DNA from: Limnohabitans sp. Rim8
GTDB taxonomy: Bacteria > Pseudomonadota > Gammaproteobacteria > Burkholderiales > Burkholderiaceae_C
Assembly: GCA_945901045.1 (NCBI GenBank)
Contig: CAMDKK010000007.1
Coordinates: 33,288-97,287 of the forward strand
Reading direction: 5' to 3'
Length of the DNA: 64,000 nucleotides
The position numbers were made by a program, and so were the translations under genes. Of the stretch, positions 46,782 through 64,000 are shown piece after piece; the first letter of the stretch is position 1, and each line of letters begins with the position of its first letter. The notes under the pieces were generated by a model. That model was not told the origin of the DNA. It made no database searches and saw only the letters and a program-made list of their open reading frames with translations.

Positions 46782-47477
46782 TCAGGCCAATCCGATCGGG
46801 GCGGTGAAAGCGTAGCCAATTTTGTGCACGGTTTCCAAGGGCAAGTCACTGCCCAATAACTGTTTGGCTTTGTTGCGCAGTCTGCGGACCAGAATTTCCA
46901 GACGTCTGAAGTCATAGGTTTGCGGGTCATGACCCAATCGGGTCACCAAGGCTTGGCGTGCCACCGCTTGGCCAGTTTGTTCGGCCATGACCTGCATGAA
47001 CATGAATTCAGAGTGGGTGAGTTTGAGGGCCATGCCAGAAGGATGGTGCAGCATCCAGTTCATACGGTGCAATACCCAGCTGGGTGTGGTTTGAGCCCGT
47101 ATCCGCCGCATCAGATTGTGGGCTAAGGAGGCCAGCTCCTCCAACTGAATGGGTTTGACCAAGTAGACATCCGCGCCGGCTTTGATGCCCTCAATGCGTT
47201 GGCTGCTCTCGCCTCGCGCTGTGGTGATGATGACACCTTTATTTTGCAGCAGGGGGTTATCCTTGAGCCAGACCATCCCATCGCCATCGGGCAAACCCAG
47301 GTCGATCACGGCCACATCGAATTGGTGTGTGCGCATCCATTGGGTGGCCATCTTCAGGCTGCTCACGCCATCGGCTGCAAAGCCTTCCATGTTCAGGTAA
47401 GTGACCATGGCTTCCATCAAATCGACCTCGTCTTCGATCACCATGATGCGTCCGTGCAAAGGATTGAAATTGCTCAT
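46782..47477 (-). CDS. OmpR-type response regulator
   Basis: 231 residues. Receiver domain with acidic pocket IEDEVD and phospho-acceptor Asp in VIDLGLPDGDG, plus the conserved Lys in YLVKPI. C-terminal winged-helix DNA-binding domain with RRLEILVRRLRNK and TVHKIGYAF. Its start overlaps the kinase stop (ATGA), so they form one pair. Confidence 0.93.
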   Translation of the reverse strand: MSNFNPLHGRIMVIEDEVDLMEAMVTYLNMEGFAADGVSSLKMATQWMRTHQFDVAVIDLGLPDGDGMVWLKDNPLLQNKGVIITTARGESSQRIEGIKAGADVYLVKPIQLEELASLAHNLMRRIRAQTTPSWVLHRMNWMLHHPSGMALKLTHSEFMFMQVMAEQTGQAVARQALVTRLGHDPQTYDFRRLEILVRRLRNKAKQLLGSDLPLETVHKIGYAFTAPIGLA

Positions 47478-49495
47478 AGGATCCGATTGTCACTGGTTTT
47501 GCTGGGCAGCCAAAGGCAAAAACGACTGCCTTGACCCACAGCGCTTTGCAGCTCCAGTTTTCCGTGGTGCATTTGTACGATGCGCCTGACAAATGCCAGA
47601 CCCAGTCCCAATCCGGTGATGGTGCTCTCAGACGCCACGCGAAAGTAATCCTCAAAAACTGCTTCATGGTGCACGGTATCAATGCCTTGTCCCTCGTCGC
47701 TCACACAAATGCCAACCCATCCCGGTTTTTGCAGGGTTTCGACCACCACCTTCGTGCCCGCATTTGAGTATTTACAAGCGTTGTCAATCAGGTTCAAGAC
47801 GGCCACTTCCAACAGGTTTTCATCTGCCCATAGATCACCCAGAGCGCGGTTGATTTTCAACTCCAAGCGGTGGTTGGCGTGGTAACTGGTTTGGTCGTCG
47901 ATCAACTCGCGAAGCCATGCCGCCAGTGGCAGGTGTTGCGGCTTCATTTCTTGCATGGCTTGCTGCAAACGATCACCACGCAGCCAAGTTTCAAACAGTG
48001 AAAGCAATCGTCGGGTAGCGCCGTCGACGGTTTGCAGTCGTTTTTCCAAATTCAATTGCCCCAGTTCATGCTCTTTGCGCATCAGGCTGATTTGGCTGTT
48101 GATGATGCCCATGGGATTGCGAAATTCGTGAGAAATCAAAGCCCCAAAACGCATGTATTGGCTGAGCAATTGGGTTTCCGAGCTGAGAGCGAGCTTGAGT
48201 TGCTCGGTGCGTTCTTGCACAGCGCGTTCAAGTCGCTCCTCGGCCAGGCGAGCACTTTCAAGTAGACGCTGGTTGGCTTCGATGGCTTGTTGCTGTGCCG
48301 CTTCGCGGTCTTTGCGTTCGATGTGCACGATGTCGGCCAAGGCCAAGGCCAAGAGCAGCATCTCAATGGCTGAAGAAATTTGCAGACTGTAGGACGTGAA
48401 TGTGTTGGTGGGCAGAAGGTCAAAAGCTCGCAAGGCGGCAATGCTGGCCCCAGACCAAAGAACCAGCCAAGCCAGCAAGAAAAAACGAGCTCCTTTTTCG
48501 CCCCGAAGCACGATCATGGTCCCCGCGACCGCCACCAAGCCTCCGGTGGGCAGCACGATCACAAACAAGCCCATCAACAACCATTCTTTGAACTGCCCGT
48601 GCCACAGTGTACTGAGCAAGGCGATGGCAATAAGCAAGTAAAAACTGCAAAAGAGCATCAAACCCCTTGAGGCCCAGGGCAGGTGTTGCCGCGCACGCAA
48701 AAAGCGGTCGGCAAACAGCATGGAAAAGCACCCCACCAAACTCAAAAAAACCGATTGCGCAATGCCATCAAATGCAGTTTGGCCGGGCCACAGGAACAAC
48801 TGTCCCAAACCATTGCCAGCCAGCATGGCCAATCCAAAATGACCCACAAACAGGGAGTAAAGCAAAAACCGCAGGTCCTTGAGCGATAGCCACAAGAAAA
48901 GGTTGTAGATGAGCAAAGCGATCAATCCACCGAAATACAGGGCTTGAAGAATGAACTTGTTTTGAATGTGGTGACGAAACGGCTGCTCTTGCCACAGGTT
49001 CAAAGGCACCGTCAGGCTGTGATCGCTGGTCACACGCAGATAAAAGGCTGCTGAGTCGGTGCTGATCTGGACGGGAAATGCATAAAAACTGTGCAAAAAA
49101 GGCCTTGTCGAAATGTCCAAGGCGTTGCCTGTGCGAACGGGCAACTGGTTGGGCGCAAAGAAATCGACGGTTGTCAATTGAAAAAAAGGCAACTCCAAAA
49201 CCCAGTTTGCGGGTGCATCGCTGGTTCTTTGCAGGGGGATGCGGATCCACAATGCCGATCGGCTGAAACCCAAATTGATATCCCCGCGTTCGGCGTTCCA
49301 AGCTTGAAAACGGCTTGCCAATGCGGGACTGCGCACGTCTTCTAGAGTCCATTGGCCAGTTGTGTCTTCCAACACGGCCAAATTTTGCAAACGTTGTTGA
49401 TCAGTTGTGTCCCTGTCCAGCACGTGGGTTTGAGCCTGCGACAGCAGGCTGCACACAGTGGCCAGGAAGATAAGCAGGGAACGGATGAGTTGCAT
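47474..49495 (-). CDS. 7TMR-DISM sensor histidine kinase
   Basis: 673 residues. Signal peptide (ending SQAQ), an extracellular DISM-like beta domain (about 35-170), seven hydrophobic helices (about 180-390), a coiled coil, then the His-kinase core: ISHEFRNPMG with the phospho-His, NLIDNACKYS (N box), DEGQGID and GLGLGLAFVRRIV. The extracellular fold often binds carbohydrate-like ligands. It is encoded divergently from the SapC-TolC locus, 242 nt away, and might regulate it; that is inference. Confidence 0.92.
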   Translation of the reverse strand: MQLIRSLLIFLATVCSLLSQAQTHVLDRDTTDQQRLQNLAVLEDTTGQWTLEDVRSPALASRFQAWNAERGDINLGFSRSALWIRIPLQRTSDAPANWVLELPFFQLTTVDFFAPNQLPVRTGNALDISTRPFLHSFYAFPVQISTDSAAFYLRVTSDHSLTVPLNLWQEQPFRHHIQNKFILQALYFGGLIALLIYNLFLWLSLKDLRFLLYSLFVGHFGLAMLAGNGLGQLFLWPGQTAFDGIAQSVFLSLVGCFSMLFADRFLRARQHLPWASRGLMLFCSFYLLIAIALLSTLWHGQFKEWLLMGLFVIVLPTGGLVAVAGTMIVLRGEKGARFFLLAWLVLWSGASIAALRAFDLLPTNTFTSYSLQISSAIEMLLLALALADIVHIERKDREAAQQQAIEANQRLLESARLAEERLERAVQERTEQLKLALSSETQLLSQYMRFGALISHEFRNPMGIINSQISLMRKEHELGQLNLEKRLQTVDGATRRLLSLFETWLRGDRLQQAMQEMKPQHLPLAAWLRELIDDQTSYHANHRLELKINRALGDLWADENLLEVAVLNLIDNACKYSNAGTKVVVETLQKPGWVGICVSDEGQGIDTVHHEAVFEDYFRVASESTITGLGLGLAFVRRIVQMHHGKLELQSAVGQGSRFCLWLPSKTSDNRIL

Positions 49496-49737: not shown

Positions 49738-50493
49738 ATGTTTGAACAAGTCGTTCCCGTTAACAAAGACCGTCACGCCAGAAAAAAAATTCGCACCAGC
49801 AACGATTTCCGTTTTGCGTCCAAATTCCATGTGGCCTATGTGACTGTGCATGAATTTGCCCGCGCTGCCGCGATTTACCCCTTGGTTTTCCTTGAAGACA
49901 AAGCCAACGACGATTTCCGTCCTGTGGCGCTGATGGGTTTGGATGCCGGTGAAAACCTGTTCGTCGATAGCCAGGGCCAATGGGCTGGATCGTACATCCC
50001 CGCCATCATCCGCCGCTACCCCTTTGCGCTGACCAAAGCGCCAGAGGCAGACCGTTACATCGTGTGTGTGGACGAAGCCAGCGAGTTGTTGAGTGATACC
50101 GAGGGAGCGCCCATGTTTGATGAGCAAGGCAACCCAACGCAGGTCATTGAAAACGTCAAGCGTTATTTGGGCGAGTTGCAGCAAATGGACACCATGACGC
50201 ATGAATTCAGCAAGTTTCTGGTGCAAAACAACCTGTTGACGCCCTTGAACATGCGCGTCAATGCTGCGAATCAAGTGCGCAATATCAGCGGCTGCTACGT
50301 CCTTAACGAAGAGCGCCTGAACAATTTCAGCGATGCCAAATTCATTGAAATTCGTCAAAAAGGTTATCTGCCCGCCATCTACGCACACCTGATTTCCTTG
50401 TCGCAGATCGAGCGACTGGCCTCCATGAAAAAACCGGCCCCAATGGTCAGTGAGAAGGCTGCCGCTCCGATGGGTACCGAAACCCTGCAATAA
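49738..50493 (+). CDS. SapC family protein
   Basis: 251 residues with no signal peptide. FHVAYVTVHEFARAAAIYPLVF, ALMGLDAGENLF and YIPAIIRRYPFAL are the family's N-terminal pattern. SapC is encoded beside the S-layer secretion genes of Campylobacter fetus, though its role is not established. Here it precedes TolC and HlyD genes and a giant surface-type protein, which echoes that context. The 242-nt upstream region is AT-rich and divergent to the kinase gene. Confidence 0.88.
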   Translation: MFEQVVPVNKDRHARKKIRTSNDFRFASKFHVAYVTVHEFARAAAIYPLVFLEDKANDDFRPVALMGLDAGENLFVDSQGQWAGSYIPAIIRRYPFALTKAPEADRYIVCVDEASELLSDTEGAPMFDEQGNPTQVIENVKRYLGELQQMDTMTHEFSKFLVQNNLLTPLNMRVNAANQVRNISGCYVLNEERLNNFSDAKFIEIRQKGYLPAIYAHLISLSQIERLASMKKPAPMVSEKAAAPMGTETLQ

Positions 50494-50588
50494 GCAGCCA
50501 CCACCGCCCCGATGGCTGCTTTGCAACAAGTGGTGTCGGGGTTATTTCATTTTGAATCTTCAATGGAATTGAGCGAAGGGGTCAGAGC

Positions 50589-52118
50589 ATGGTCAATTTT
50601 TCTGAGGCACGGGGGCGGCGAACACTGCCATGGTGTTTGTTCGCTGTGTTGGCGGCAGCGTCCACTGGGGTTCAGGCCCAAGACAAGCCTTCGACGCTGA
50701 GTTTGCAAGCACTGGTCTCACAGGTGCGTGAACTGAACAAAGACATACTCATTAAGCGCGCTGAAAAGGGCATTGCCGCTACGGGGCTTGACCGTGCAGC
50801 CGCAGCTTTTCAACCCGTTGCCAGTGTATCTGCCACCGAGGGTCGTAACCGCCAACCCAGCACCTACGAAGAAAAGTTGACCAGACCCGGTTCAGTCGGT
50901 TCGTTTTATCAGCGCGATGGCCAGGATTTCACGGCTGGCGTGAGCCAGTTGCTGCCATCGGGCGCCAAACTCGAAGCCAAAAGCAGTCTGTCCCGCTTCA
51001 TCACCAACGTCAATCAAGCCCAACCGGATCGCCCTGCAGGGGCCAAAGACAACCGCACTTTTTGGGGCCTGACGGTGACGCAACCCTTGGCCAAAGATGG
51101 GGGTGCCGAGGTGACCCAGGCACGTGGTTTGGTGGCCCAACTCGATTTGGCTGTGGCGGAGCAGACCCAGTTCGATACCGAATCCAGTGTGGTGGCCGAT
51201 GCCACATTGGCCTACTACGAGCTGGTCTTGGCGCAGCACCGCGTGAGCGCAGCCCATGAAAAAATCCGCACTGGGCAGGGTTTGCTCAGCCAAGCGCGAG
51301 ACTTATCACGCCAGGGTCGCTTGCCTGAAACCGAAGTCTGGGAAGTCGAAAACTCTTTGGCGCGTTTTCAGGCCGGACTCAGTGAGGCCATGCAAGCCGA
51401 GCGCGAGCGCTTGAATCGACTGAACACCTTGCTCATGCGTGCGACCGGTGCAGAAGCACCCGTTTGGCGTGCAGGCGATCCTTTGCCTGAAGTGACCATT
51501 CGCGATGCGGCGCCTTCTCATTCGCTGAGCTTGGCCATGGAAAATCGGCCAGACTTTTTGATGTACAAGAAACTGATCGAACGTGAGGGCGTGCAGTTGG
51601 TATATGCCAAAAACCAAGCTTTGCCTCGCATTGATTTGGTGGCCAGTTATGGCCAAAACGGACTGGCCTATGCCGCCAGAACAGCACTCAACCCCAGCAC
51701 CATGGCTGACAACCCGACCTGGACCCTGGGCTTGCAAATGCAGATCCCTTTGGGCGAAAACCGCCAAGGCCGCGCAGACGTTGTGGCTGCGCAGTTGCGC
51801 CGCGAAAACGCTCTGCTCACGCTCAAAGCCCTCGAAGTTCAAATTGCCAACGACATTGACACCAGCCTGAGCATGCGCGCCAGTGCCATCGAGCGATGGA
51901 CGCACTGGCAATCGGTAGCGAAACGTGAACAGCAGCAATTGGAATTGGAGCGCAAACGATTTACCGCTGGACGCAGTGAAATGCGCGAAATCCTCATGCG
52001 TGAAGAGCGAGCTGTCAACTCGCGACTGATGCAACTGGAGCAGCAACTGGCATTTGCCAAGGCGCAAGTTGTGCTGGAGTCGGCCCAGGGCACATTGCTC
52101 CAGCGATGGCCATCATGA
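50589..52118 (+). CDS. TolC-family outer membrane efflux/secretion protein
   Basis: 509 residues. Signal peptide (about 1-31, ending VQAQ). Two TolC-like halves of long helices with LAKDGGAEVTQARGLVAQLDLAVAEQTQF and NPTWTLGLQMQIPLGENRQGRADVVAAQLRRENALLTLK. It would form the outer-membrane exit duct of an export system. The next gene's ATG overlaps its stop (ATGA). Confidence 0.92.
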   Translation: MVNFSEARGRRTLPWCLFAVLAAASTGVQAQDKPSTLSLQALVSQVRELNKDILIKRAEKGIAATGLDRAAAAFQPVASVSATEGRNRQPSTYEEKLTRPGSVGSFYQRDGQDFTAGVSQLLPSGAKLEAKSSLSRFITNVNQAQPDRPAGAKDNRTFWGLTVTQPLAKDGGAEVTQARGLVAQLDLAVAEQTQFDTESSVVADATLAYYELVLAQHRVSAAHEKIRTGQGLLSQARDLSRQGRLPETEVWEVENSLARFQAGLSEAMQAERERLNRLNTLLMRATGAEAPVWRAGDPLPEVTIRDAAPSHSLSLAMENRPDFLMYKKLIEREGVQLVYAKNQALPRIDLVASYGQNGLAYAARTALNPSTMADNPTWTLGLQMQIPLGENRQGRADVVAAQLRRENALLTLKALEVQIANDIDTSLSMRASAIERWTHWQSVAKREQQQLELERKRFTAGRSEMREILMREERAVNSRLMQLEQQLAFAKAQVVLESAQGTLLQRWPS

Positions 52119-52978
52119 GGCGTTTGAACAGCATGAGCGCATGCTTGTCTGTATTCAGGGTCACGGTGTTGGCCCTTTTGCCTTGGGGGGGAGCGGTCGC
52201 ACAACCTGCCGCACCCTTGAACAATGGCGCAATGAAATCTCAGAGTGCTGCGGTGGGCGTGACACAAGCCTTGCGCGATGTCAAGCTCAGCATGACCGTG
52301 GCCGGTCGCATTGATGGGGTTTTTGTCCGCGAAGGCTCGCGGGTGCGGCAAGGCCAGTTGTTGATGCATCTGGACCGAATACTGGAAGAGCTGGAGGTGC
52401 AGCGCCGACGTCTGTTGGTGGAAGACAACGCCCGGCTCCAAGAGCTTCAGCAAAAAGAAAAAATACTGATCGAGCAAGTCAACGCTTTGCAGCCCTTGCT
52501 GGCCAATGGCGGCGTTTCGCGTAAGCAAGGGGAGGACGAGGTCATGGCGCTGGGCTCTGTGAGTGCAGAGCGCAAAGCCATAGAAGCGATGAAGGTCCGT
52601 GAGGGTGTTGAATTGGCCTTGGCGCAAGAGGCTTTCGAGCGGCGTCACCTGCGTTCGCCGATTGACGGTGTCATCACCAAGGTGGCACTGCGTGTGGGTG
52701 AAAGTGTGGGGCCGCATGAAGCCGTGATCACCGTGGTGGACATCAGCCGAGTGCGTTTCATTGGCACCGTCCCCGCCCGTGCAGGTCTCTCATTGAAGCC
52801 GGGCAGTACCGTCAAGATTGAATTGGGGCAAGACACGCAATCCAAAACGCGATCGGCCAAGGTGGTGTTTGTTTCGCCCATCACCGACCCCTCCAGTGGC
52901 TTGATTGAACTGATTGCAGAGTTTGACAACGCCGATGGTTCCATCCGACCCGGCATCAGTGGCCGACTGTTGTTCTGA
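52115..52978 (+). CDS. HlyD-type periplasmic adaptor protein
   Basis: 287 residues from the ATG at 52115; an ATG at 52106 adds three. Signal peptide followed by a barrel-sandwich (MTVAGRIDGVFVREGSRVRQGQLLMHLD), a coiled coil (about 85-170, LEELEVQRRRLLVEDNARLQELQQ), the second half-motif RSPIDGVITKVALRVGESVG, and a beta-barrel domain. It would connect TolC with the inner-membrane components. ATGA start coupling with TolC. Confidence 0.9.
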   Translation: MRRLNSMSACLSVFRVTVLALLPWGGAVAQPAAPLNNGAMKSQSAAVGVTQALRDVKLSMTVAGRIDGVFVREGSRVRQGQLLMHLDRILEELEVQRRRLLVEDNARLQELQQKEKILIEQVNALQPLLANGGVSRKQGEDEVMALGSVSAERKAIEAMKVREGVELALAQEAFERRHLRSPIDGVITKVALRVGESVGPHEAVITVVDISRVRFIGTVPARAGLSLKPGSTVKIELGQDTQSKTRSAKVVFVSPITDPSSGLIELIAEFDNADGSIRPGISGRLLF

Positions 52979-52988
52979 CCGTCTGCCC

Positions 52989-54887
52989 ATGAACGCGTTC
53001 TCTCAAAAATTGAACTCAGCAGTCCAAGACGCTGAGTCTGTCAGTTCGGTGTGGACCGAGCTGGCGGCATTGCAAGGCACCGTGCAGGTGTTTTGGGAGC
53101 AGTACCTGCAAGCCGTGGGGCAGCAATTGGGTGCACGGCGCGTATTGTTGTTGTCCTCTGGCGTGGGACAGCCTTGGCAAGCCCTGGCCCAATGGCCAGC
53201 GCAGGCACCCGAACTGCCCAGTGATGCCGATGAGGCTTTGCAACTGTTGCAGCGGGCCCAACCTGGTGAACCCGTCTTGAGCTACAAGGCGCAAGGCGCA
53301 TGCGTTTTGGCCATGCCGCTGCCGAACGCCCCCGTTGCTGCCAGCCGTGTCGCTGCTTTGGTGGCCTGGTTGACAGTGAGCGAAGAGCAGTCCCCAAATC
53401 AATGGCAGGCTTGGGCTGAGTCGGTGGCCAAAGTGCCTGCTGCTTATGTCAGGCAATCGGCCGAGACCTCTGCACTGCAGACCGCCCAAGTGCAGGGCGA
53501 CGCGCAAGACCCGCTTTCGGCCGAGCCCCATGCCCAGCGGCTCTACCAAATCTTGCGCTTGTCCATCGACTTGTCCCAGCAGGACCGGTTTTTGCACCGT
53601 GCCTACGAGCTGTGCAACGCACTGGCTGTGCGTTTTGACACCGACCGTGTCTCCTTGGGCTGGATGCACCCGCCTTATGTCCAGTTGACCGCCATCAGTC
53701 ATATTGAAAAATTCGATCCGCAATCCAACCTGACACGGGCGTTGGAAAGTGCCATGGAAGAGGCGGCAGACCAATCGGACGATTTGGTCTACCCCTTGTC
53801 AGAGGCGTCTCGCCAGGTGCACCGCGCGCACGAGTCTTACGCCTTGATGCAAGGCGTAGCGGCTTTGGCCAGCGTGCCGCTGCGTGAGGGCGCTGACGTC
53901 AAGGGCGTTTTGTGTCTTGAAAGGCGTCTGGGCGTGTGGACCCCCGAGGAGTTGTGGGAGCTGCACCTGATTGCGCAGACGGTGGTGCGTCCTTTGGCCC
54001 AATTGCAGCAAAGCGACCGATGGTGGGGCGCACGCGGCAAATCCAGACTGCAAAAATGGCTGTCACAAAGCCTGCAACCCAAGCAAAGCGCCTGGAAACT
54101 GGGGGGGCTGCTGTCTTTGGTGACCTTGCTGGTCTTGATTTTCTTGCCCTGGTCATTCCGAGTCGACGCTACCTTGACTTTGCGCAGCAAGGATTTGCTG
54201 TTCATGCCCGCGCCGTTTGATGGCTATTTGCAGCAAGTGCATGTTGAAGTGGGTGACAAAGTTGAAGCCGCTCAAGTGTTGGTGCAACTGGACACACGCG
54301 ACCTGGTGCTTGAAGAATCCATGGCACAAGCCGATGTCATGCGCTACAGCCGCGAAGCCGAAAAAGCCCAAGCCACCCGACAACTGGCCGAGATGCAGAT
54401 CAACCTGGCGCGTCAGGACCAATCGGCCTCGCGCCTGGCCCTGGTTCGCCACCAATTGGCGCATGCCAAAGTGACCGCGCCCCATGCCGGCGTGGTGGTG
54501 GAGGGCGAGCTCAAGAAAAACCTGGGTGCCCCTTTGCGCAAGGGCGACTTGTTGCTCAAACTGGCCCAAACCGACGACACCTATTTGGAGTTGGAAATTG
54601 ACCAGGTCGATGTCCACGAGGTCAAATCCGGCACACGTGGCGAATTTGCCCTGGTCGGACGGCCCGACCAGCGCTTTGACATCGAGTTGGTACGCATCGA
54701 TCCGGCCTCTACTTTGCGTGAAGGCCGCAGTGTTTACCTGGCGCGGGCCAAGGTGTTGTCGCCCACTCCGGCGTGGTGGCGTCCCGGCATGGGGGGCAGC
54801 GCCAAGTTGTCAGCCGGTGACCGCCCATTGATCTGGGTCTTGACGCACCGCACCGTCAGGTTCTTGCGGGAGTTTTTCTGGCTATGA
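52989..54887 (+). CDS. GAF-domain/HlyD fusion membrane adaptor
   Basis: 632 residues from the ATG at 52989. Residues ~1-180 are an undefined cytoplasmic part; ~185-345 resemble a GAF domain (DRFLHRAYELCNALAVRFDTDRVSLGW and ASVPLREGADVKGVLCLERR). One transmembrane helix at about 370-388 precedes a HlyD barrel-sandwich (LLFMPAPFDGYLQQVHVEVGDKV) and a coiled coil. GAF domains sense small ligands, so this adaptor may carry a cytosolic sensor or docking module. Architecture unlike common type I adaptors. It begins 10 nt after the first adaptor. Confidence 0.82.
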   Translation: MNAFSQKLNSAVQDAESVSSVWTELAALQGTVQVFWEQYLQAVGQQLGARRVLLLSSGVGQPWQALAQWPAQAPELPSDADEALQLLQRAQPGEPVLSYKAQGACVLAMPLPNAPVAASRVAALVAWLTVSEEQSPNQWQAWAESVAKVPAAYVRQSAETSALQTAQVQGDAQDPLSAEPHAQRLYQILRLSIDLSQQDRFLHRAYELCNALAVRFDTDRVSLGWMHPPYVQLTAISHIEKFDPQSNLTRALESAMEEAADQSDDLVYPLSEASRQVHRAHESYALMQGVAALASVPLREGADVKGVLCLERRLGVWTPEELWELHLIAQTVVRPLAQLQQSDRWWGARGKSRLQKWLSQSLQPKQSAWKLGGLLSLVTLLVLIFLPWSFRVDATLTLRSKDLLFMPAPFDGYLQQVHVEVGDKVEAAQVLVQLDTRDLVLEESMAQADVMRYSREAEKAQATRQLAEMQINLARQDQSASRLALVRHQLAHAKVTAPHAGVVVEGELKKNLGAPLRKGDLLLKLAQTDDTYLELEIDQVDVHEVKSGTRGEFALVGRPDQRFDIELVRIDPASTLREGRSVYLARAKVLSPTPAWWRPGMGGSAKLSAGDRPLIWVLTHRTVRFLREFFWL

Positions 54888-57061
54888 GCATGGACAGCGC
54901 CAGCGGACGAATCTACAGCGATGCCTGGCATCGCGTGGCTGGCGTTCGTGCGTGTTTGCGCAGCAGCGTGCGGGCGCACCGCCAAACTTTCCGGGGCGAA
55001 GACTGGGTTGTGCTGCGCGACAGCTTGGGCAGCGATTTTTTCCGTGTCACGGCTGACGCCTATGCTTTTTTGAGCCGACTGAGCGCCCAGCGCACCATCG
55101 ATGAAGTCTGGGGCGACTTGATGGAGACACAACCCGATGTGGCGCTGACCCAAGAAGAAGTGGTGCAGCTGCTGGGTCAGTTGCAACTGTCCAATTTGCT
55201 CCAGTTCGACCGTGGTGCCGCAGCGGCCAGTTTGTTTGAACGCCATCAACAACGCCGTGGTCGCGAGATCAAGGCCATGTTGATGGGATTTTTGTCCATC
55301 AAGATCCCCTTGATCGATCCGGACCGGGGTTTGGACCGGGCCTTGCCTTGGATCCGATGGCTGCTCGGCCCCATCGGTGTGGGGTTGTACCTGCTGTTGT
55401 TGGTGTGGGGCGGCAAAGCGCTGCTGGACAACTCGGACCGTGTGTTTGACCAGTCTGCGGGCTTGTTGGCACCGGCCAATTTGGGCTTGCTTTACATCGG
55501 CCTGGTGCTGGCGAAGCTGGTGCATGAATTTGGCCACGCCGCTGTGTGCAAACGCTATGGCGGTGAAGTCCACAAAATGGGCGTGATGCTGCTCATGTTT
55601 GCGCCGCTGCCTTACATGGATGCCACGGCCAGCTGGGGATTTCGCAGCCGCTACGAACGCCTGTTGGTGGGGGCCTCGGGTGTCCTCAGCGAGTTGGCTG
55701 TGGCCGCCGTGGCGGCCTTGGTCTGGGCCCATACCGCGCCCGGCGTGGTGAATGCACTGGCTTACAACGTGATCTTTGTGGCCAGCGTGTCCACCCTGCT
55801 GTTCAACCTGAATCCGTTGATGCGCTTTGACGGTTACCACATGCTGGTGGACTTTTTAGATGTGCCCAACTTGTTCCAACGCTCGCGAGACCAGCTCAAG
55901 TACTTGGGCGAATTCTGGGTTCTGGGCCTGAAGAATGCGCAACCGGCTGCCCGCTCCGCCAACGAGGCGTTGTTGCTGCCGCTGTATGGCGCCATCAGTC
56001 TGGTGTATTGGGTGGTCTTGATGTCCACCATCATTTTTTTCATCGCCGAGCAATATCTGGACTTGGGCGTGGCCTTGGCCTGGTTTTTATTTTTCACCAT
56101 TGTGGTTTTACCGCTGTTCAAGTTCGTGAAATACCTGGCCTCCAGTCCCAATCTGCAGCATCAGCGCGCCCGCGCCTTGTTGACGGCCATGGGCCTGACC
56201 GGTCTGAGCTTGGGGCTGTTGGCGGCCGTGCCCTTGCCTGACCGAGTCAGGGTCAAGGGGGTGCTGCAAGCCACGCAGTTCAGGGCCCTGTACAGCGACA
56301 GTGGTGGCGCATTGGTGGCCTTGAAAGTGCGTCCGGGCAGTTGGGTGGAACCGGGTCAAGCGCTGCTCACCCTCAGCAATCCCGAACTGTTTTTTGAAAT
56401 TCAATCAGCCCAGCAGCAGCGTCAACAACTGATCTCGCAGGAGCTGCAAGCCATCAGCCAGGCTGTGGCCAATTGGGAGCCCCTGCGGCGTCAGCGTCAA
56501 GCGGTGGAACAAAAGCTGCTTGAACTGCAAAGGCAACAAGCGTCCTTGACGGTGCTGGCTCCGGTGGCGGGCATTTGGAGCGCCAGCGAGCTCGAATCCA
56601 GCCAAGGCCAGTGGTTGGCCCGAGGCGCCAGCCTGGGCACGGTGGTCGATGAGCGTGCTTGGCGGTTTGTGGCCGTGCTGCCCCAAGTGGGCACGCATCT
56701 GTTTGAAGCCGGTGTTTTGCAAACCGAAATTCGTTTGGCCGGTCAGCAAGAATTCAATGTGTTGGCCCGTCAAACCGAAGTAATGCCCTTTGAGCAGGGC
56801 CAACTGCCCTCGCCAGCATTGGGCATGGCCGGTGGCGGAGACATTGCTGTGCAAAGTTCTGACCCCCATGGTCTGACAGCCGCTGAGCCATTTTTCAGGG
56901 TCCAGGCCGAATTGCCTGACTTGCGCGGCCAAGATGCGCAGTCTCTGCGTTTGCTGCACGGTCGGGTCGGCACCATGCGCATCAGCTTGCCCCATTCGCC
57001 TTTGTTGTACCAATGGGAGCGCGGTCTGCGGCAGTTCCTGCAAAGGAAATTCAGGGTATGA
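54884..57061 (+). CDS. PqqD-like / M50 peptidase-like / HlyD membrane fusion protein
   Basis: 725 residues. Residues about 30-105 look PqqD-like (VLRDSLGSDFFRVTADAYAFLSRL). The membrane core holds the site-2 protease motifs HEFGH (214-218) and NLNPLMRFDGYHM (Asp316). After several helices comes a HlyD-like half (GVLQATQFRALYSDSGGALVALKVRPGSWV) with a coiled coil around Gln/Arg-rich residues 510-555. It may process, release or conduct the exported protein; proteolysis is only inferred from motif integrity. It overlaps neighbours on both sides by four bases (ATGA). Confidence 0.83.
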   Translation: MSMDSASGRIYSDAWHRVAGVRACLRSSVRAHRQTFRGEDWVVLRDSLGSDFFRVTADAYAFLSRLSAQRTIDEVWGDLMETQPDVALTQEEVVQLLGQLQLSNLLQFDRGAAAASLFERHQQRRGREIKAMLMGFLSIKIPLIDPDRGLDRALPWIRWLLGPIGVGLYLLLLVWGGKALLDNSDRVFDQSAGLLAPANLGLLYIGLVLAKLVHEFGHAAVCKRYGGEVHKMGVMLLMFAPLPYMDATASWGFRSRYERLLVGASGVLSELAVAAVAALVWAHTAPGVVNALAYNVIFVASVSTLLFNLNPLMRFDGYHMLVDFLDVPNLFQRSRDQLKYLGEFWVLGLKNAQPAARSANEALLLPLYGAISLVYWVVLMSTIIFFIAEQYLDLGVALAWFLFFTIVVLPLFKFVKYLASSPNLQHQRARALLTAMGLTGLSLGLLAAVPLPDRVRVKGVLQATQFRALYSDSGGALVALKVRPGSWVEPGQALLTLSNPELFFEIQSAQQQRQQLISQELQAISQAVANWEPLRRQRQAVEQKLLELQRQQASLTVLAPVAGIWSASELESSQGQWLARGASLGTVVDERAWRFVAVLPQVGTHLFEAGVLQTEIRLAGQQEFNVLARQTEVMPFEQGQLPSPALGMAGGGDIAVQSSDPHGLTAAEPFFRVQAELPDLRGQDAQSLRLLHGRVGTMRISLPHSPLLYQWERGLRQFLQRKFRV

Positions 57062-59091
57062 GCGCCATCATCAGCCCCGCACCACAAAGCACCCAACGAC
57101 CCCTGCGCCAGCGCAGTGCGGTGTTGGAGAAACTGCGTCCTCTGGAAAAGCTGCCTGAAGGCCTGGACTCTTGGGTGGACCGCAGCCAAGGCTGGCTCAA
57201 GCGCCGCCCCAGCCAGGCCAGAGGGCTGTCCCACGAAGCCCAAGCTTGTGCGCGCTTGTGCACCGAGATGCGCCAGCTGGATGAGCCGGCCCTCAATCAA
57301 GCCCTGGTTTTGGCCAAAGAAAATCTGCGCCGTGACCCGGTGCACGCCAAAGGCCAACTCATCGAGGCCCTGGCCCTGGTGGGCCAAGTGGCCTTTCGGG
57401 TGTTGGGCATGCAGCCCTATCCGGTTCAGTTCATGGGGACTTTCGCATTGCACCGCGGCTGGTTGGCCGAGATGGCCACCGGCGAGGGTAAAACACTGAC
57501 GGTGGCGGTGGCGGCCGTCTTGGCTGGCTGGAGTGGCCGCCCATGTCATGTCATCACCGCCAACGATTACCTGGCTGAGCGCGACGCAGACACCATGCGC
57601 CCGTTGTTCGACGCCTGCGGTGTGAGCCTGGCATCCGTGCATACCGAGGTGCCTCCCGAGCAACGCCCAGAGCGTTATGCCTGCGATGTGGTGTATGTCA
57701 CCCCCAAAGACTTGCTGGCCGACCATTTGCGCGACCAATTGGCCGCCGGTCAGGGACAAGATGCCAATTGGCAGCAGTTTCAGCAATGGCTGGGCCACCC
57801 CCCCAGTGCCCAGCCTGCCCAATTGTTGCTGGTGCGGGGTTTGCACACCGCCATCGTGGACGAGGCCGACAGTGTCTTGATCGACGAAGCCGTGACCCCG
57901 CTGATTTTGTCGGCACGCCGCCCCAGTCGGGGCTTGAGCGAAGCCGTGGTCTTGTTGGCCCAATTGGCCCCCCAATTGGTCCCACAAGAAGACTATGAAC
58001 GCCTCTCACGCACGCGCACGGTGGTACTCAAACAAGGTGCAATCCAAGCGCTGGCGGCTTTGGCCGATCAGTTGCCGCCCGTGTGGCGGCCCGCCCCCAG
58101 GCGCGAAGAACTGTTGCGCCAGGCCTTGCAGGTCCATTGCTTCTTTCGGGCTGGACATCAATACCTCGTCCATGACGGTGAAATCGTTTTGCTTGACGAA
58201 TTCACGGGTCGCATGACACCTGGCCGCACCCTCACAGCGGGTTTGCATCAAGCTGTAGAGGCCAAGGAGGGGCTGGAGATCACCGACCCCAACGAGGCAC
58301 TCAGCCAAATGAGTTTTCAGGCTTTTTTCCGCAGCTTCCCCCGCTTATCGGGCAGTTCCGGCACCTTGTGGGAAGCCGTCAACGAGTTGTGGCAGGTCTA
58401 CCGCATGCGAGTGGTGCGCGTGCCAACACACCGTCCCCGCCTGACCCGCGTCTTGCCGGCACAGTTGATGGTCAGCACGCAAGACAAGTGGCGGGCTGTG
58501 GCGCGTGAAGTGATCGCGGCGCAACAAGCCCATGGCGCGGTTTTGGTCGGTGTGCGCAGTGTGGAGTCGAGCGAAATTTTGGCCCAGCTTCTGCTCAGCC
58601 AGGGCGTTGAAGCAACGGTGCTCAACGCCGTGCACCACGCAGAAGAAGCCGACATCGTGGCCGTAGCCGGTGAACCCGGCCGCATCACCATCGCCACCAA
58701 CATGGCCGGTCGTGGCACCGACATTCGCTTGCACCCCGAAGTTGAAGCCCAGGGGGGCTTGCATGTGGTCATTGCCGAAGTGAATGAATCGGCGCGCATT
58801 GACCGCCAACTCGCAGGCCGCTGTGGTCGCCAGGGAGATCCGGGCAGTGTGTCGGTCTACCTGTGCCTGGAAGACAACTTGGCCAGCCGTTATATGCCCG
58901 TAGCCTTGCGTTCGGGCCTGCGTTGGCTCCATGGCCGCTCAGTGGAGCAGGCTTCATGGCTTGGCTTGCGGGCCTTTCTGTGGGCCCAGCGGCGCGCAGA
59001 GTCGGATGCCTTTGAGCGGCGGTTTTCAATCCTGCGCAACGATGACTGGATGGCTTCGGCCTTGCCCTTTGCCCAAAGGGGCGGCGCATGA
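57058..59091 (+). CDS. Shortened SecA-like ATPase
   Basis: 677 residues from the ATG at 57058 (canonical SecA is about 900). DEAD motor motifs are intact: GEGKT (142-146), DEAD (268-271), GRGTDI (551-556) and GRCGRQGDPG (587-596). The protein ends about 70 residues after the last motif, in the region matching the beginning of the long scaffold helix (AQRRAESDAFERRF). The two-helix finger, helical wing and Zn-binding tail of housekeeping SecA are therefore missing. The only ATPase in this export locus; a SecA2-like role is inferred. Confidence 0.85.
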   Translation: MSAIISPAPQSTQRPLRQRSAVLEKLRPLEKLPEGLDSWVDRSQGWLKRRPSQARGLSHEAQACARLCTEMRQLDEPALNQALVLAKENLRRDPVHAKGQLIEALALVGQVAFRVLGMQPYPVQFMGTFALHRGWLAEMATGEGKTLTVAVAAVLAGWSGRPCHVITANDYLAERDADTMRPLFDACGVSLASVHTEVPPEQRPERYACDVVYVTPKDLLADHLRDQLAAGQGQDANWQQFQQWLGHPPSAQPAQLLLVRGLHTAIVDEADSVLIDEAVTPLILSARRPSRGLSEAVVLLAQLAPQLVPQEDYERLSRTRTVVLKQGAIQALAALADQLPPVWRPAPRREELLRQALQVHCFFRAGHQYLVHDGEIVLLDEFTGRMTPGRTLTAGLHQAVEAKEGLEITDPNEALSQMSFQAFFRSFPRLSGSSGTLWEAVNELWQVYRMRVVRVPTHRPRLTRVLPAQLMVSTQDKWRAVAREVIAAQQAHGAVLVGVRSVESSEILAQLLLSQGVEATVLNAVHHAEEADIVAVAGEPGRITIATNMAGRGTDIRLHPEVEAQGGLHVVIAEVNESARIDRQLAGRCGRQGDPGSVSVYLCLEDNLASRYMPVALRSGLRWLHGRSVEQASWLGLRAFLWAQRRAESDAFERRFSILRNDDWMASALPFAQRGGA

Positions 59092-60029
59092 CGGCCAGTG
59101 CCCAAGCCATGCGCCGTCTGTGGCCCGATTGGTGTGCTGCTGCGCAGCAAATGCTGGGCGCGATGTTGGGCGAGCTGCAAGGTTTGGTCATCACTGGCGG
59201 GGAGGCCTCTGTGCGCTTGTCCCCACGCGGCATCTGCCGTGGCCGCTGGGTGGCCGGTTTTTCTCCGGTAGGGGTCTCTCCAGACCGTTTGCTGGGTTTG
59301 CCCCAACGCTTGGGCATGCCCGCAGCCGGTGCGCAGCATTTCCTTGAACAACACCAGCGTGCCCGGCAAATTTACCTGGCCTTGGCCCAAACCGGCCACC
59401 AAGTCGTTGCCAAGGTCTACCTCGAATACCCTTTGCCGGCGGTCGACTTGCGTGCCCACCCCGCGCAGAGACGTTCGGTGGCCTTGCAAATTGAATCGTG
59501 CAAATGGCGCGTTGACCCGATCAGACCCTTGGATCCGATAGAGCAAACCGAATATTGGCGTGTCTCGGGTCTGGATGGCCTGGCCATGCTTGAACTGCTG
59601 CGCCAAACATCCGATCTTCCACCTGCTGTGCAGGCTGTTTATGCCGGTGTGGCCACAGTGCTGGAGCAAGCACTTCGGGGTCAGCCCGACTGGCAAGGCT
59701 ACCGCCTGTTGTCGGTGCGCGAGCCCAGCCAAGGCCGCCAAGGTGTGGGCGTGCGTTTTTATGGCAGTGAGCAGTGCGTCAGCGCTGTATGGCCCGCACT
59801 GGCCCCTGTATTCACCGATTGGGGGCTGCCGCAGCAAGAGCTGAGCGACCTCCAAGAGATCTGGAGCCATCAAGAACTGGGTTGGCTGCTCGCCGGCCTG
59901 GACAAGCATGGCCAGCCCTATCTCAATGTTTATGGCGCGATCAACCGCGCCCAAACCCGTGCCGTGTTGACACCGGCCGGGTCTGCTCTGGACGAGCAGG
60001 TCAACCCATTGCAGGAAAAATCACGATGA
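59088..60029 (+). CDS. Unrecognised protein between SecA-like gene and giant gene
   Basis: 313 residues; ATGA overlap with the SecA-like gene and again with the giant gene. Soluble-looking with no signal peptide or membrane helix. Possible small motifs: GLVITGGEASVRLSPRGICRGRW near the start and YGAINRAQTRAVLTPAG near the end. I recognise no family. By position it may be a chaperone or escort of the giant protein; this is only a guess. Confidence 0.75.
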   Translation: MTASAQAMRRLWPDWCAAAQQMLGAMLGELQGLVITGGEASVRLSPRGICRGRWVAGFSPVGVSPDRLLGLPQRLGMPAAGAQHFLEQHQRARQIYLALAQTGHQVVAKVYLEYPLPAVDLRAHPAQRRSVALQIESCKWRVDPIRPLDPIEQTEYWRVSGLDGLAMLELLRQTSDLPPAVQAVYAGVATVLEQALRGQPDWQGYRLLSVREPSQGRQGVGVRFYGSEQCVSAVWPALAPVFTDWGLPQQELSDLQEIWSHQELGWLLAGLDKHGQPYLNVYGAINRAQTRAVLTPAGSALDEQVNPLQEKSR

Positions 60030-63000
60030 AAAATACAAAACGCTGGGGCTCTGGTCACATTCGTCACGCTTTTCGCCGCAGTCGCAGCACGGTAGAGCGC
60101 CTGGAAGACCGCATCTTGCTGTCCGCTGAACCGCTGGTGCAGTTCAATCGGTTGGACAGCGAGCAGCCCTTGGCCGTGGAAAACATGGACTATGCTGCGA
60201 AGAAAAGCCCCACGCATCCGCTGGACCTGGACACCATCTCCAGCATTGCCAGTTTGATCGATCTGACCAAGCCACAGTCGCAGCAAAGCACACGATTCAA
60301 CTGGTCCGGCTCCAGTGCGTCCTTGCTCAAGCTCAATTCGCAGTTGTCAGCCTTGGTGCTGGATCTGGGCGCGGGCAGCAACCAAGTGAGTCTGAGCGAT
60401 GAAGGCAACGGCATGTTGCGCCTGGCCAGCCAAAACGGGAACTCGATTTACGATCTGGTCTTTGCCAAACCCACCAGCATTTTGGGAATCCGTGGAGCGG
60501 CGGGCTTGGACAGCCTGGTGCTCAACAATGTGGATCTGGGTTCGACCAGTTTGTCGGTGGATTTTGAAAGCATCTCCATCCCTCAAGAAGCCAAAATCAC
60601 CAGTGATAACCAATTGCTGCTCATGGCCAAGAGCAGTTTTGCGGGTGACTTGGGGCAATTGACCATCGGTTCAGACAAACTGGATTTGACGGCCAGCATC
60701 GATGTCGCTGGCACGCTTGAAGTCAAAGGCAATGTGGTGCTGGCGGCGCGGGTTGATGTCGATTTGCAGCAAGACGTGGCGCTCACCGGTTTTTACACCG
60801 TCAACGGCACCACCAGCTCGCGCGTGCGCGTTGCCGATGGTGCCCAAATCACGGCGCAAAGCCTGGAGCTCAATGCCATCACTGAATCTCGCTGGTCATT
60901 GGCCGCCAACGATGGTTTGATCGGTGGTCGCTTGGCGCTCAACCTCAACCAGTCCACCGAGGCTTTGGTTGACGGGGGTGTCAGCATTTCTCTGGCCCCA
61001 CTGGCCAATGCAGACGGCAGTGTCGGCGTGGGCTTGTTGGTGCAAGCCCAGGACTGGACAGATGCCTCGGTGGTGCTGGACATGGCCGATGGCGACATCA
61101 CCGGCTTGTCCAAAAACACCGTAGCCGGACAGGCGCTGGAGGGTTTTGAATTGGGCTGGACCCAAATTGACTTGGTGCGCAAGACCGTGGCCAGTTTGGG
61201 CAGTGCAGCAGCCGGTCAAGCCTTGAGCAGCGTGGGCGGTCAAAACGGCCAAAGCGCAGGTTGGGTTCAGGTCTCGGCAGGCAGCTTTGATGGCGCAGGC
61301 GATGAAGACGGCGAGAACGCCGGTGTGCATGGCTCGGTGATGTCTTCCCTGGTGGGCTTGCACATCAACAACATTGACCACAACGTGCTGGCTTCGGTGG
61401 CCAATGCCGCGCTCGAAGTGGGCGCTCTGAACGTCTATGCGATCAATGACAGCAGCCACCTGGCCAACGGCAAGATCGCCAAAAACACGGCCCAAGGCAG
61501 TACAGCCGCTTGGCTCAACAGCGTGGACCTCAGCAGTGAAGGCGAAGTGGCGGTCATTGCCAGCGACTTGGCCGTGTTTTTGGCCACCAGCGAAGGTTTT
61601 TCTGCTGACATTCCCAAACTGGACACCCTCAAAGTCGGCGTAGCCTCCACCTCCAACACCGTTAATCGCCAAGTTTCGGCTTACCTGGTCAGCAGCACCG
61701 TCAGTGCCAGCAGCTTGGCCGTGTTGGCCAGCAGTGCGGGCACGCTGTCCGTCTCACTGGAATCCATGGCGGTTGCCGGTGGCAAATCAGAGCCTTCCGC
61801 TGAAGGTTCGGGTGGCAGCTTCCAGATGGCCTTTGGTGGCAGCTTGGCGTGGAACCAACTCAACGGCAAAACGCAAGCCTATGTGGACAACAGCACCGTC
61901 GAAGCGACAGACGGTGACGTGATGCTGCAGGCAGTCAACAGCACCGCCATGAATGCCCAAAGCAAGGCAGGCACCGCGGTCAGCAACAGTTCGGGCGTGG
62001 CTGCAGGGGCCTCTTTGGCCTTCAACGCAGTGGGCTGGGACATGGGCAATATCGCCGCAGCCGGTCTGAACAGCCTGTTGGGCACCGACATCGGCACCGA
62101 GTCGCCCCTGCAGACCTTGGCTGACTTGCGCGGCAGCGATGTCACGGCCAGCGGTGAGGTGAGCGTTCTGGCCCAAGACGAATTGGCCCTCAATGCACAC
62201 ATCAGCAACGCCTCGGACGTGATCGCAGGCGACGCCGCCAGTGGCATGTCGGTGGGTGCGGCCATGATCTTGGCCAGCAACCGCGTGCGCTCTGAAACCC
62301 GCGCCTATGCAGACGGCAAAAAACGCCTGGAGGGCGCAGCCCAAGCCACCTTGGATGTGGGTGGCGGGCTGACTGTGTCTGCCACAGACGATGCCAGCAT
62401 CACAGCCGATGTCGCCATGTCGGCCAATGTCAACAGTGGATCCGGTGGGGCTGTCGCTGCTGGGGGTGTTTTTTCCCTCAACGACGTGCGCTCCACGGTG
62501 GCAGCCGATGCCTGGAGCCTGACGCTGACCACCGGCGGCGACGCTTCGATCACCGCCTCAGCGACGGCGCAGATTTCCGCCGTACTCAGTGGCGAGGTGG
62601 TGGCCTCGTCTGAAGAAGCGGACGCGGCCGAGGGCGGCGATGAAGCCGCGGCAGAGCCGGCAGCCGATGCTGGAGCCGATGCAGGGGCCGATACCGAATC
62701 AGGCGATGCCGCAGGCGGTGGGGCCACCTCGGTGGCAGCCAACGGCCTGATTGCCACCAACCGCATCCTGATCGATGCCGACGCCTCGCTGCGCGACAGC
62801 GTGGTCACCGTCAGTGGCAGCCTGGGCGTGGAGGCAGAAAACACCGCCACCATCGACGCTGAAAACACCGCCAGCACCGAAAGCTCGGGCACCGCCGCTG
62901 GCGTGGTGCTGGCTTTCAACACCATCGGTTGGAAGCCGCAGAACATTTTCTCGGCCGCCATCGACACCTTGATCGGCACCGACGGTCTGGGCCAGACCGA

Positions 63001-64000
63001 CAGCGCCCAGTCCGGCGCCGAGATCACCAACACCACACTTGATGTGGGCGAAGACCTGACGCTCACGTCCGTGACGGTGCCGCAGATCAACGCCTCGATT
63101 GAAAACACCGTCCAGTCCAGCGGCGGTGTGGCGGTGGGCTTGACACTGGCCTCCAACCTGGTCAGCGCTGACTCGCATGTGCTGCTCACGCCCAAGACCG
63201 AAGCGGGCGTGATGGCGTTGCCCGACGACACGGTGTTTGCGGTCGGTGGCAATGTGCTGGTCAAGGCCAGTGACACCTCGGGCATCGTCGCGCGCATCGG
63301 AGCGGCCACGGGCAGCGAAGGCAAAGCCGCATTGGGCGCGCAGTTGGTGCGTAACGACGTGCGCAGCACCGTCAACACCCTGGTGGACAGTGCGGCGATC
63401 GAGGCCGAAGGCGATGTGAGCTTGCTCGCACGGGGCTCGGCCAGCATCACCGCCTTGCTGTCGGACCAGGAGCTGCCGGAACTCAAGGAGAGCGAGCCTG
63501 AGGATGGGCAGGCCGTCGCTGAGGAAGAAGCAGCAGCCGAAGAGGAAGTCGTGGCAGAAGAAGTCGCGGCCGAAGAAGAGCCCACATCTGAGGAATTGAT
63601 TGCTGCCGAGGAAGAGGCTGCTGCTGAAGAAGAGGCTGCGGCGGCCTCCATGGCCTTTAAAGGCCTGATTGCCACCAATCTGGTGCTTTCCGATGTGCGC
63701 GCCACGGTTCTGGACAGCGACATCAGCGCGGGCGGTGACCTGATTGCGCGCGCCCGCAACGCGGCGCAGATCGAGGCCGAAAACACCGCCAAGGCCGATG
63801 CCGACGGTGCGGCCGTGGGCGTGACCCTGGCCTTCAACACGATCGGTTGGAAGGCACAAAACGTGTTGTTCAACGCGCTCGATGCGCTGCTGGGCACCCG
63901 CATTGGCAACGAACAGCCGGCGCAGATCCTGGCCACCGTCTCGGGCTCGAATCTGTCGGCCGGAGGCGATCTGTCGGTGCTGGCGCAGGCCGCGGAGACG
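60026..64000 (+). CDS. Giant repetitive surface-type protein with LEPR-XLL-like N-terminus (partial)
   Basis: The frame is open from the ATG at 60026 to the window edge: 1,325 codons visible, no stop. Basic N-terminal stretch (RRSRSTVER) then LEDRILLSAEP at residues 26-36, a close variant of the LEPR-XLL motif found at the start of large repetitive proteins, presumed a sorting signal. No classical signal peptide is seen. The rest is Ala/Thr/Ser/Val/Asp-rich beta-type sequence with repeats and acidic linkers. Its gene is translationally coupled to the export genes and probably encodes their substrate. Confidence 0.85.
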   Translation, partial: MKNTKRWGSGHIRHAFRRSRSTVERLEDRILLSAEPLVQFNRLDSEQPLAVENMDYAAKKSPTHPLDLDTISSIASLIDLTKPQSQQSTRFNWSGSSASLLKLNSQLSALVLDLGAGSNQVSLSDEGNGMLRLASQNGNSIYDLVFAKPTSILGIRGAAGLDSLVLNNVDLGSTSLSVDFESISIPQEAKITSDNQLLLMAKSSFAGDLGQLTIGSDKLDLTASIDVAGTLEVKGNVVLAARVDVDLQQDVALTGFYTVNGTTSSRVRVADGAQITAQSLELNAITESRWSLAANDGLIGGRLALNLNQSTEALVDGGVSISLAPLANADGSVGVGLLVQAQDWTDASVVLDMADGDITGLSKNTVAGQALEGFELGWTQIDLVRKTVASLGSAAAGQALSSVGGQNGQSAGWVQVSAGSFDGAGDEDGENAGVHGSVMSSLVGLHINNIDHNVLASVANAALEVGALNVYAINDSSHLANGKIAKNTAQGSTAAWLNSVDLSSEGEVAVIASDLAVFLATSEGFSADIPKLDTLKVGVASTSNTVNRQVSAYLVSSTVSASSLAVLASSAGTLSVSLESMAVAGGKSEPSAEGSGGSFQMAFGGSLAWNQLNGKTQAYVDNSTVEATDGDVMLQAVNSTAMNAQSKAGTAVSNSSGVAAGASLAFNAVGWDMGNIAAAGLNSLLGTDIGTESPLQTLADLRGSDVTASGEVSVLAQDELALNAHISNASDVIAGDAASGMSVGAAMILASNRVRSETRAYADGKKRLEGAAQATLDVGGGLTVSATDDASITADVAMSANVNSGSGGAVAAGGVFSLNDVRSTVAADAWSLTLTTGGDASITASATAQISAVLSGEVVASSEEADAAEGGDEAAAEPAADAGADAGADTESGDAAGGGATSVAANGLIATNRILIDADASLRDSVVTVSGSLGVEAENTATIDAENTASTESSGTAAGVVLAFNTIGWKPQNIFSAAIDTLIGTDGLGQTDSAQSGAEITNTTLDVGEDLTLTSVTVPQINASIENTVQSSGGVAVGLTLASNLVSADSHVLLTPKTEAGVMALPDDTVFAVGGNVLVKASDTSGIVARIGAATGSEGKAALGAQLVRNDVRSTVNTLVDSAAIEAEGDVSLLARGSASITALLSDQELPELKESEPEDGQAVAEEEAAAEEEVVAEEVAAEEEPTSEELIAAEEEAAAEEEAAAASMAFKGLIATNLVLSDVRATVLDSDISAGGDLIARARNAAQIEAENTAKADADGAAVGVTLAFNTIGWKAQNVLFNALDALLGTRIGNEQPAQILATVSGSNLSAGGDLSVLAQAAET
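61916..64000 (+). repeat. About 300-residue protein repeats in the giant gene
   Basis: The hallmark LAFN(A/T)(V/I)GW occurs at 62018, 62912 and 63830 (codon of the Ala), giving periods of 894 and 918 nt (298 and 306 residues). Each copy is followed by a segment like LLGTDIGTE or LIGTDGLG and then a beta-rich SGEVSVLA-type stretch. The second and third copies share the preceding AENTA motif. The third copy runs past the window end, so the copy number is unknown. Confidence 0.8.
62594..62730 (+). other. Acidic Ala/Asp/Glu-rich linker within the giant protein
   Basis: About 45 residues dominated by Glu, Asp, Ala and Gly lie between repeat units, with a second longer Glu/Ala-rich linker at about 63460-63650. 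They look like flexible, Ca2+- or surface-associated spacers; no defined domain is recognised. Confidence 0.6.

Follow-up and report, generated by a model that had tools for sequence, protein, structure and literature searches.

Gene content of the locus

The window, which is the whole 64,000-nucleotide stretch of DNA that was analysed, closes with a gene set at 49738-64000. The ORF listing, together with Pfam and NCBIfam searches, gave the following features:

49738..50493, + strand: SapC-family protein, accessory rather than core (PF07277, 1.6e-73)
50589..52118, + strand: TolC-family outer-membrane duct (OEP, 3.6e-28)
52106..52978, + strand: short periplasmic adaptor of the HlyD/RND type with an N-terminal hydrophobic stretch (TIGR01730, 1.1e-35, above cut-off; hydropathy)
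52914..54887, + strand: GAF-HlyD protein (GAF, 6.5e-8; HlyD_3, 6e-13; hydropathy)
54884..57061, + strand: RRE-M50-HlyD fusion (PqqD-like at aa 1-130, HExxH at aa 214-218, HlyD C-terminal)
57058..59091, + strand: SecA-like ATPase without the C-terminal third of SecA (SecA_DEAD, 3.3e-82; SecA_PP_bind, 5.8e-20)
59088..60029, + strand: protein with a predicted ABBA prenyltransferase fold (model and Foldseek; no sequence family)
60026..64000, + strand: giant LEPR-XLL gene, 5' part, cut by the contig end (LEPR-8K, 22.6 bits; LktA_tand_53 repeat, 1.6e-29)
60101..60121, + strand: LEPR-XLL motif (LEDRILL) of the proposed leader (sequence)

The coordinates bore out the sequence-only reading of eight consecutive ORFs, all on the + strand. 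It had also described most of them as joined by ATGA overlaps, which is the case at four of the seven junctions (54884, 57058, 59088, and 60026) and not at the other three. The SecA-like start at ATG 57058 agrees with the overlap to M50-HlyD. The GAF-HlyD start is likely ATG 52989, and hydropathy places GAF N-terminal and HlyD C-terminal of a single hydrophobic stretch (aa 393-411).

The window giant belongs to LEPR-XLL (NF012209), its N-terminal motif scoring 22.6 bits against a cut-off of 17. The contig terminates 287 bases beyond the window end. The giant frame hits a stop in the final bases, where the tail is an out-of-frame repeat of the preceding stretch (window 63700-64000, locus L008), and we take that for an assembly-end effect. 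In genomes G023 (10,011 aa) and G029 (6,149 aa), the giant gene is open to the contig end.

Using the seven ABC exporters of the window's own genome as queries (E 1e-8), we found no ABC-exporter-like ORF of at least 150 aa in a region running from 20 kb ahead of the window to the contig end 287 bases beyond it. Thus, the window carries no such transporter, as had been claimed, and the neighbouring ABC gene that had been named as evidence against a dedicated system was not seen, the visible DNA beyond the window being those 287 bases.

Divergent from the cassette, on the - strand at 46782-49495, lie a 7TMR-DISM histidine kinase and a response regulator, which are possible regulators. ORFs with the same start sequence occupy the same place in G023 and G029.

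Conservation of the cassette and its link to LEPR-XLL giants

A conserved neighbourhood, the expected outcome of the co-occurrence search that the sequence-only reading had proposed, was found in each sample of loci. Among the matches listed from 60 related genomes, we chose 14 short SecA-like loci by hand (10 genomes), and GAF-HlyD and M50-HlyD adjoined all 14. An M50-HlyD alignment was also searched against GTDB genomes with a single search pattern, and the best 80 of 547 loci were taken. The NPLxRxD motif is part of this pattern, so it has no evidential value for M50 identity. The records are mostly MAGs, and their titles in these best 80 of 547 loci name nine phyla: Pseudomonadota, Thermodesulfobacteriota, Verrucomicrobiota, Kiritimatiellota, Planctomycetota, Fibrobacterota, Elusimicrobiota, Spirochaetota, and Nitrospirota. 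One record titled Akkermansia (L070) is 60% identical to the window protein, and its placement is possibly wrong. At 96% identity, the best named match of the window M50-HlyD among them lay on a contig with the title Limnohabitans sp. Rim8.

Neighbours were counted within 8 kb at a profile score above 40 bits. In the best 80 of 547 loci, a SecA-like gene lay at this distance from M50-HlyD in 72 (66 scoring above 600 bits), and in 67 of the 70 loci having at least 2.2 kb of downstream DNA. GAF-HlyD was present in 72, the short HlyD in 54, TolC in only 30, SapC in nine, the ABBA-fold gene (own profile) in seven, and an ABC match in five. Two of these ABC matches, at L127 and L140, share 52-53% identity with an ABC protein of 594 aa from the own genome; the remaining three were weak. 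SapC, proposed as part of the apparatus, is present in the window but was rejected as a core part on its count of nine loci. In a wider sample of 299 Pseudomonadota, the SecA-like gene lay within 3 kb of M50 in 39/48 loci and was missing in nine cassettes, some of these at contig ends; few candidates per genome were scored, and some M50 loci were possibly missed. The distances of the three core proteins at 55 of the 80 loci were correlated (r 0.857, 0.858, and 0.92; 0/999 permutations), as for a trio that would move together as a set.

Other genes also occur at these loci. At L044:6150-6455, L035:4853-5200, and L039:1270-1593, giant and cassette are separated by a DUF3467 protein of some 100-115 aa, as they are at plasmid loci L228, L229, and L230. 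The G028 cassette contains a small SPOR-domain protein (L042:4783-5124), and a two-partner secretion pair (ShlB-type transporter and TPS-domain protein) directly follows one cassette (L044:13211-19999).

On finished plasmids of isolates, the cassette order is the same. We examined five of 30 matching records, many of the 30 being Lactobacillus or Listeria SecA. The Mesorhizobium ciceri R30 plasmid carries a giant gene of 31,557 bases (LEPRLLL) with DUF3467, two adaptors, a 'hypothetical protein' at the M50 place, and a SecA-like gene annotated as 'DEAD/DEAH box helicase'. That of Methylosinus sp. C49 carries a giant gene of 26,544 bases (LEPRVLL) and a cassette of DUF3467, adaptor, 'PqqD family protein', SecA-like (annotated as 'prepilin peptidase'), adaptor, and TolC. 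Adaptor, M50, and SecA are found on the Rhodobacteraceae M382 plasmid, together with an annotated LEPR-XLL gene, and DUF3467, adaptor, PqqD family, and SecA-like on that of Pseudohalocynthiibacter; an Ensifer plasmid record, unannotated, matches too. Because the set occurs on finished replicons of bacteria in culture, it is open to experiment.

Regarding the giants, an ORF above 1,300 aa adjoins 11/14 of the short SecA-like loci in related genomes; only contig-end-cut ORFs lie beside the SecA-like gene in G029 C54 and G040 C31, and none in G045 C55. Complete giants reach 14,206 (G026 C2), 9,584 (G026 C17), 6,860 (G002), and 4,601 aa (G051 C27). The G021 giant has 17,687 aa by open frame, and a convergent one in G028, which is cut, has at least 17,478 aa. 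RTX repeats occur in some of the giants. For one viral-fraction sample from Lake Baikal, the excerpted text of PMC9611531 ranks a Limnohabitans LEPR-XLL protein first for unique transcripts.

NF012209 matched in 9/60 relatives, all nine among the 10 with a full-length M50-HlyD (>800 bits), and in none of the other 50; since the model misses leaders visible by eye (G050, G243), this and the following counts without LEPR are upper bounds. The G050 giant, beside a more distant M50 protein, starts LEPRFMF by eye. Among the 299 Pseudomonadota, the cassette protein (E 1e-150) occurred in 37, LEPR in 39, and both in 30 (Fisher 1.1e-26, for genomes that are not independent), which leaves 7/37 cassette genomes without a LEPR match. 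This agrees with the tie between cassette and giants that had been claimed. Genome size alone, as a source of the coincidence, was weighed against adjacency: a LEPR gene lay within 10 kb of 17/48 M50 loci, and on the same contig for 20/48. In other phyla (the 46 genomes of the best 80 of 547 loci titled outside Pseudomonadota), LEPR matched in 32 and did not in 14, with cassette-free controls of 14 named genomes only (0/14). Three genomes titled Phycisphaerae, Phycisphaeraceae or Phycisphaerales (G385, G390, and G376) hold seven to nine LEPR-XLL matches each. The gene set is genuine, has a wide distribution, and goes with LEPR-XLL giants.

A more distant M50-HlyD was found in 8/9 Pseudomonadota genomes with LEPR and without the cassette. 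This sister system combines that protein with an HlyD of about 450 aa and an outer-membrane efflux protein, the latter identified as such in 5/5 genes tested; in many cases a short HlyD is present as well. It adjoins LEPR giants in G141, G250, G123, G096, and G050, and no SecA-like gene was found in those stretches; weak ABC ATPase matches (66-75 bits, 320-348 aa) occurred in two sister-system stretches. The residue after XLL was D in 6/6 sister-type leaders, whereas in main-type leaders it was S in 17/20 and D in one, in rows compiled by hand that include near-copies. Complete giants had a median of 3,697 aa at SecA-less loci (n=6) versus 9,292 aa at SecA-bearing ones (n=19), a small comparison of rows hand-picked as apparently complete; it omits G200 (4156 aa, its M50 being on a different contig) and G073 C1 (15434 aa) as well as all cut giants. 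Adding G073 C17 (13412 aa) to the SecA-less side changed the length p from 4.5e-5 to 0.003. The SecA-like protein looks like an addition accompanying the longest chains. In G354 (Marinobacter) and G243, which both hold a main-type M50 and a LEPR giant, we found canonical SecA only and no short SecA-like gene. Because of these genomes and the sister system, the SecA-like power proposed earlier, which may apply to many cassettes, is not universal.

Predicted properties of the cassette proteins

For the SecA-like ATPase, the alignment to solved SecA (7xha chain A) covers residues 34-603 of 778 and then ends. From GRGTD to the end, 80 homologues have 41-139 aa (median 126) versus 383-418 in 10 canonical SecAs, and Walker A, Walker B, and GRGTD are present in 80/80. 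Compared with the SecA motor, NBD1, PPXD, and NBD2 with intact ATPase motifs are present, and the scaffold/wing domains, the two-helix finger, and the C-terminal tail are absent; in SecA, the two-helix finger and wing belong to the absent part. We built trees of 78 short and 10 canonical SecAs and of 43 and 13, with SecA2 left out. In the latter, one branch with support 100/100 splits short from canonical, the 13 canonical SecAs being from Burkholderiales, Marinobacter, and seven other cassette genomes (one row cut at a contig end). By alignment and tree, the SecA-like protein is a separate lineage without the C-terminal third of SecA.

For the M50-HlyD protein of the window, the M50 match (3e-4) and that of the daptide HExxH protease model (1.6e-56) both fall below cut-off, and HlyD is also present. 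HExxH lies in the membrane domain of 78/80 homologues, the two misses being one 5'-cut and one long ORF. The first 130 residues matched PqqD in 23/38 homologues at E 1 or better (best 1.9e-7), the window's own match being weak (E 0.085). Their model (pLDDT 86.5) had no Foldseek match in the PDB at E 0.001. The best matches were lasso-peptide RREs with bound leaders (5v1v, which is TbiB1, E 0.012, probability 1.00; 5v1u; 6jx3), at probabilities of 0.99-1.00, and lower down came ThcOx (0.97) and a sactipeptide enzyme (0.85), with one unrelated methyltransferase in between. Two homologues, from Methylosinus sp. C49 and Pseudohalocynthiibacter, bear the NCBI label 'PqqD family'. Based on the PqqD profile matches, the Foldseek RRE matches, and these labels, we take the modelled N-terminus for a PqqD-like RRE. 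Since the protein starts with an RRE, it may, by analogy, read the LEPR-XLL leader.

For the protein at 59088-60029, neither Pfam/NCBIfam nor further sequence searches found a sequence family. Its model (pLDDT 82.1, 10 sequences) has a predicted PT-barrel fold, the best Foldseek match being the ABBA prenyltransferase 4yzj (E 8.8e-6, TM 0.47). Residues E39, R53, Y111, K139, Y156, R217, and Y282 are kept in 10/10 homologues, and K109 in eight. A secretion chaperone was rejected for this gene, since the model is an ABBA barrel. In a few lineages, the giant may be a substrate that this protein modifies.

Readings of the gene set and likeness to known systems

LEPR-XLL giants have beside them the RRE-M50-HlyD protein, a short adaptor, another HlyD adaptor of the inner membrane (with GAF here), and often TolC, to which a large subset of loci adds the SecA-derived ATPase. 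Export by the set is the simplest reading. From the sequences, we consider it rather probable that these genes make up an exporter dedicated to the giant LEPR-XLL surface protein, because of the conserved loci, the trio correlation, the LEPR coincidence, the plasmid order, the RRE fold, and the leader-letter split. In its best reading, this exporter would have RRE/M50/HlyD as its core and TolC as its exit, with a SecA-derived motor added in many lineages. The RRE would bind the LEPR-XLL leader at the N-terminus, much as the RREs of RiPP systems do with theirs, and the M50 site would cut it. The SecA-like ATPase would thread the very long chain, for which SecYEG and the membrane part of M50 are candidate routes across the inner membrane. 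Its passage outwards would be by the HlyD parts and TolC, and the GAF domain would gate export. Against the exporter reading, we counted the modest TolC count, the weak PqqD match of the window, the Foldseek RRE matches at E 0.012 or worse, the cassettes that lack a SecA-like gene, the cassette genomes without LEPR, the two genomes with canonical SecA only, and the loss of the SecA C-terminal part, which is thought to act in SecY. A bolder form, which we advance tentatively and hold to be possible, is a new secretion class in about nine phyla, where an RRE-M50-HlyD leader reader would pass the chain to a SecA-derived motor without the SecY-engaging part and on to TolC, the cargo being modified by a prenyltransferase-like enzyme in some lineages.

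The same missing C-terminal third fits two-step export, where SecYEG and housekeeping SecA would act first and the cassette later, in cleavage and HlyD/TolC passage, with the SecA-like ATPase in an auxiliary or regulatory role. The existence of SecA-less loci and of the sister system fits this too. However, the LEPR leaders of this data set are not ordinary signal peptides, as judged by eye, and the SecA-like gene is co-inherited with the cassette, and we regard two-step export as rather unlikely. It is quite improbable that the giant leaves by an ordinary ABC type I secretion system (T1SS) encoded elsewhere while the cassette only processes or anchors it. Seven ABC_membrane proteins in the own genome and the RTX repeats of some giants would suit such a route, but the set has no ABC gene, the best 80 of 547 loci gave those five matches only, and the set brings its own adaptors, often with TolC. 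The annotation of one homologue as a DEAD/DEAH box helicase would suit a helicase or regulator unrelated to transport; the preprotein-binding domain (PF01043) is kept, however, and the gene travels with membrane transport genes, which makes this role highly improbable.

Little is understood of how proteins with 5,000 to 17,000 residues leave bacterial cells, and the set is a concrete candidate machine for the LEPR-XLL group. It also brings in a SecA lineage that has no C-terminal third, and through it the recognition of RiPP leaders may be linked with the secretion of proteins.

At the level of known systems, we found no account of the gene set in the open-access literature, a search with few subscription papers covered and preprints outside it. 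The set shares an adaptor and an outer-membrane factor with tripartite pumps, for which the excerpted text of a review lists ABC, RND or MFS energisers only (PMC8277102); none of these is in the set. For both reasons we call the set new, as far as this search and that excerpt go. With the ABBA prenyltransferases TleC, PatF, and LimF, the ABBA-fold protein shares the predicted fold and conserved charged and Tyr positions, but no sequence match, and TM-scores are about 0.4-0.55. With RiPP machinery (the RRE of PqqD and TbiB1; the HExxH proteases of daptide and YydH/LiaK), the cassette shares the RRE fold and a daptide-type protease region, here fused to HlyD and beside giant proteins rather than peptides.

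In Gram-positive bacteria, the accessory Sec system (SecA2/SecY2) sets a SecA paralogue aside for large surface adhesins. A SecA paralogue beside large surface proteins is common to both, whereas the one described here is without the C-terminal third and is accompanied by TolC/HlyD envelope parts. Finally, T1SS shares with the set HlyD-type adaptors and a TolC-family duct, both present in the window, and very large, sometimes RTX-bearing cargo. Membership was rejected, since the locus is without an ABC exporter ATPase. The adaptor here is fused to RRE and M50, and T1SS cargo carries a C-terminal secretion signal, whereas the leader proposed for the giant is the N-terminal LEPR motif.
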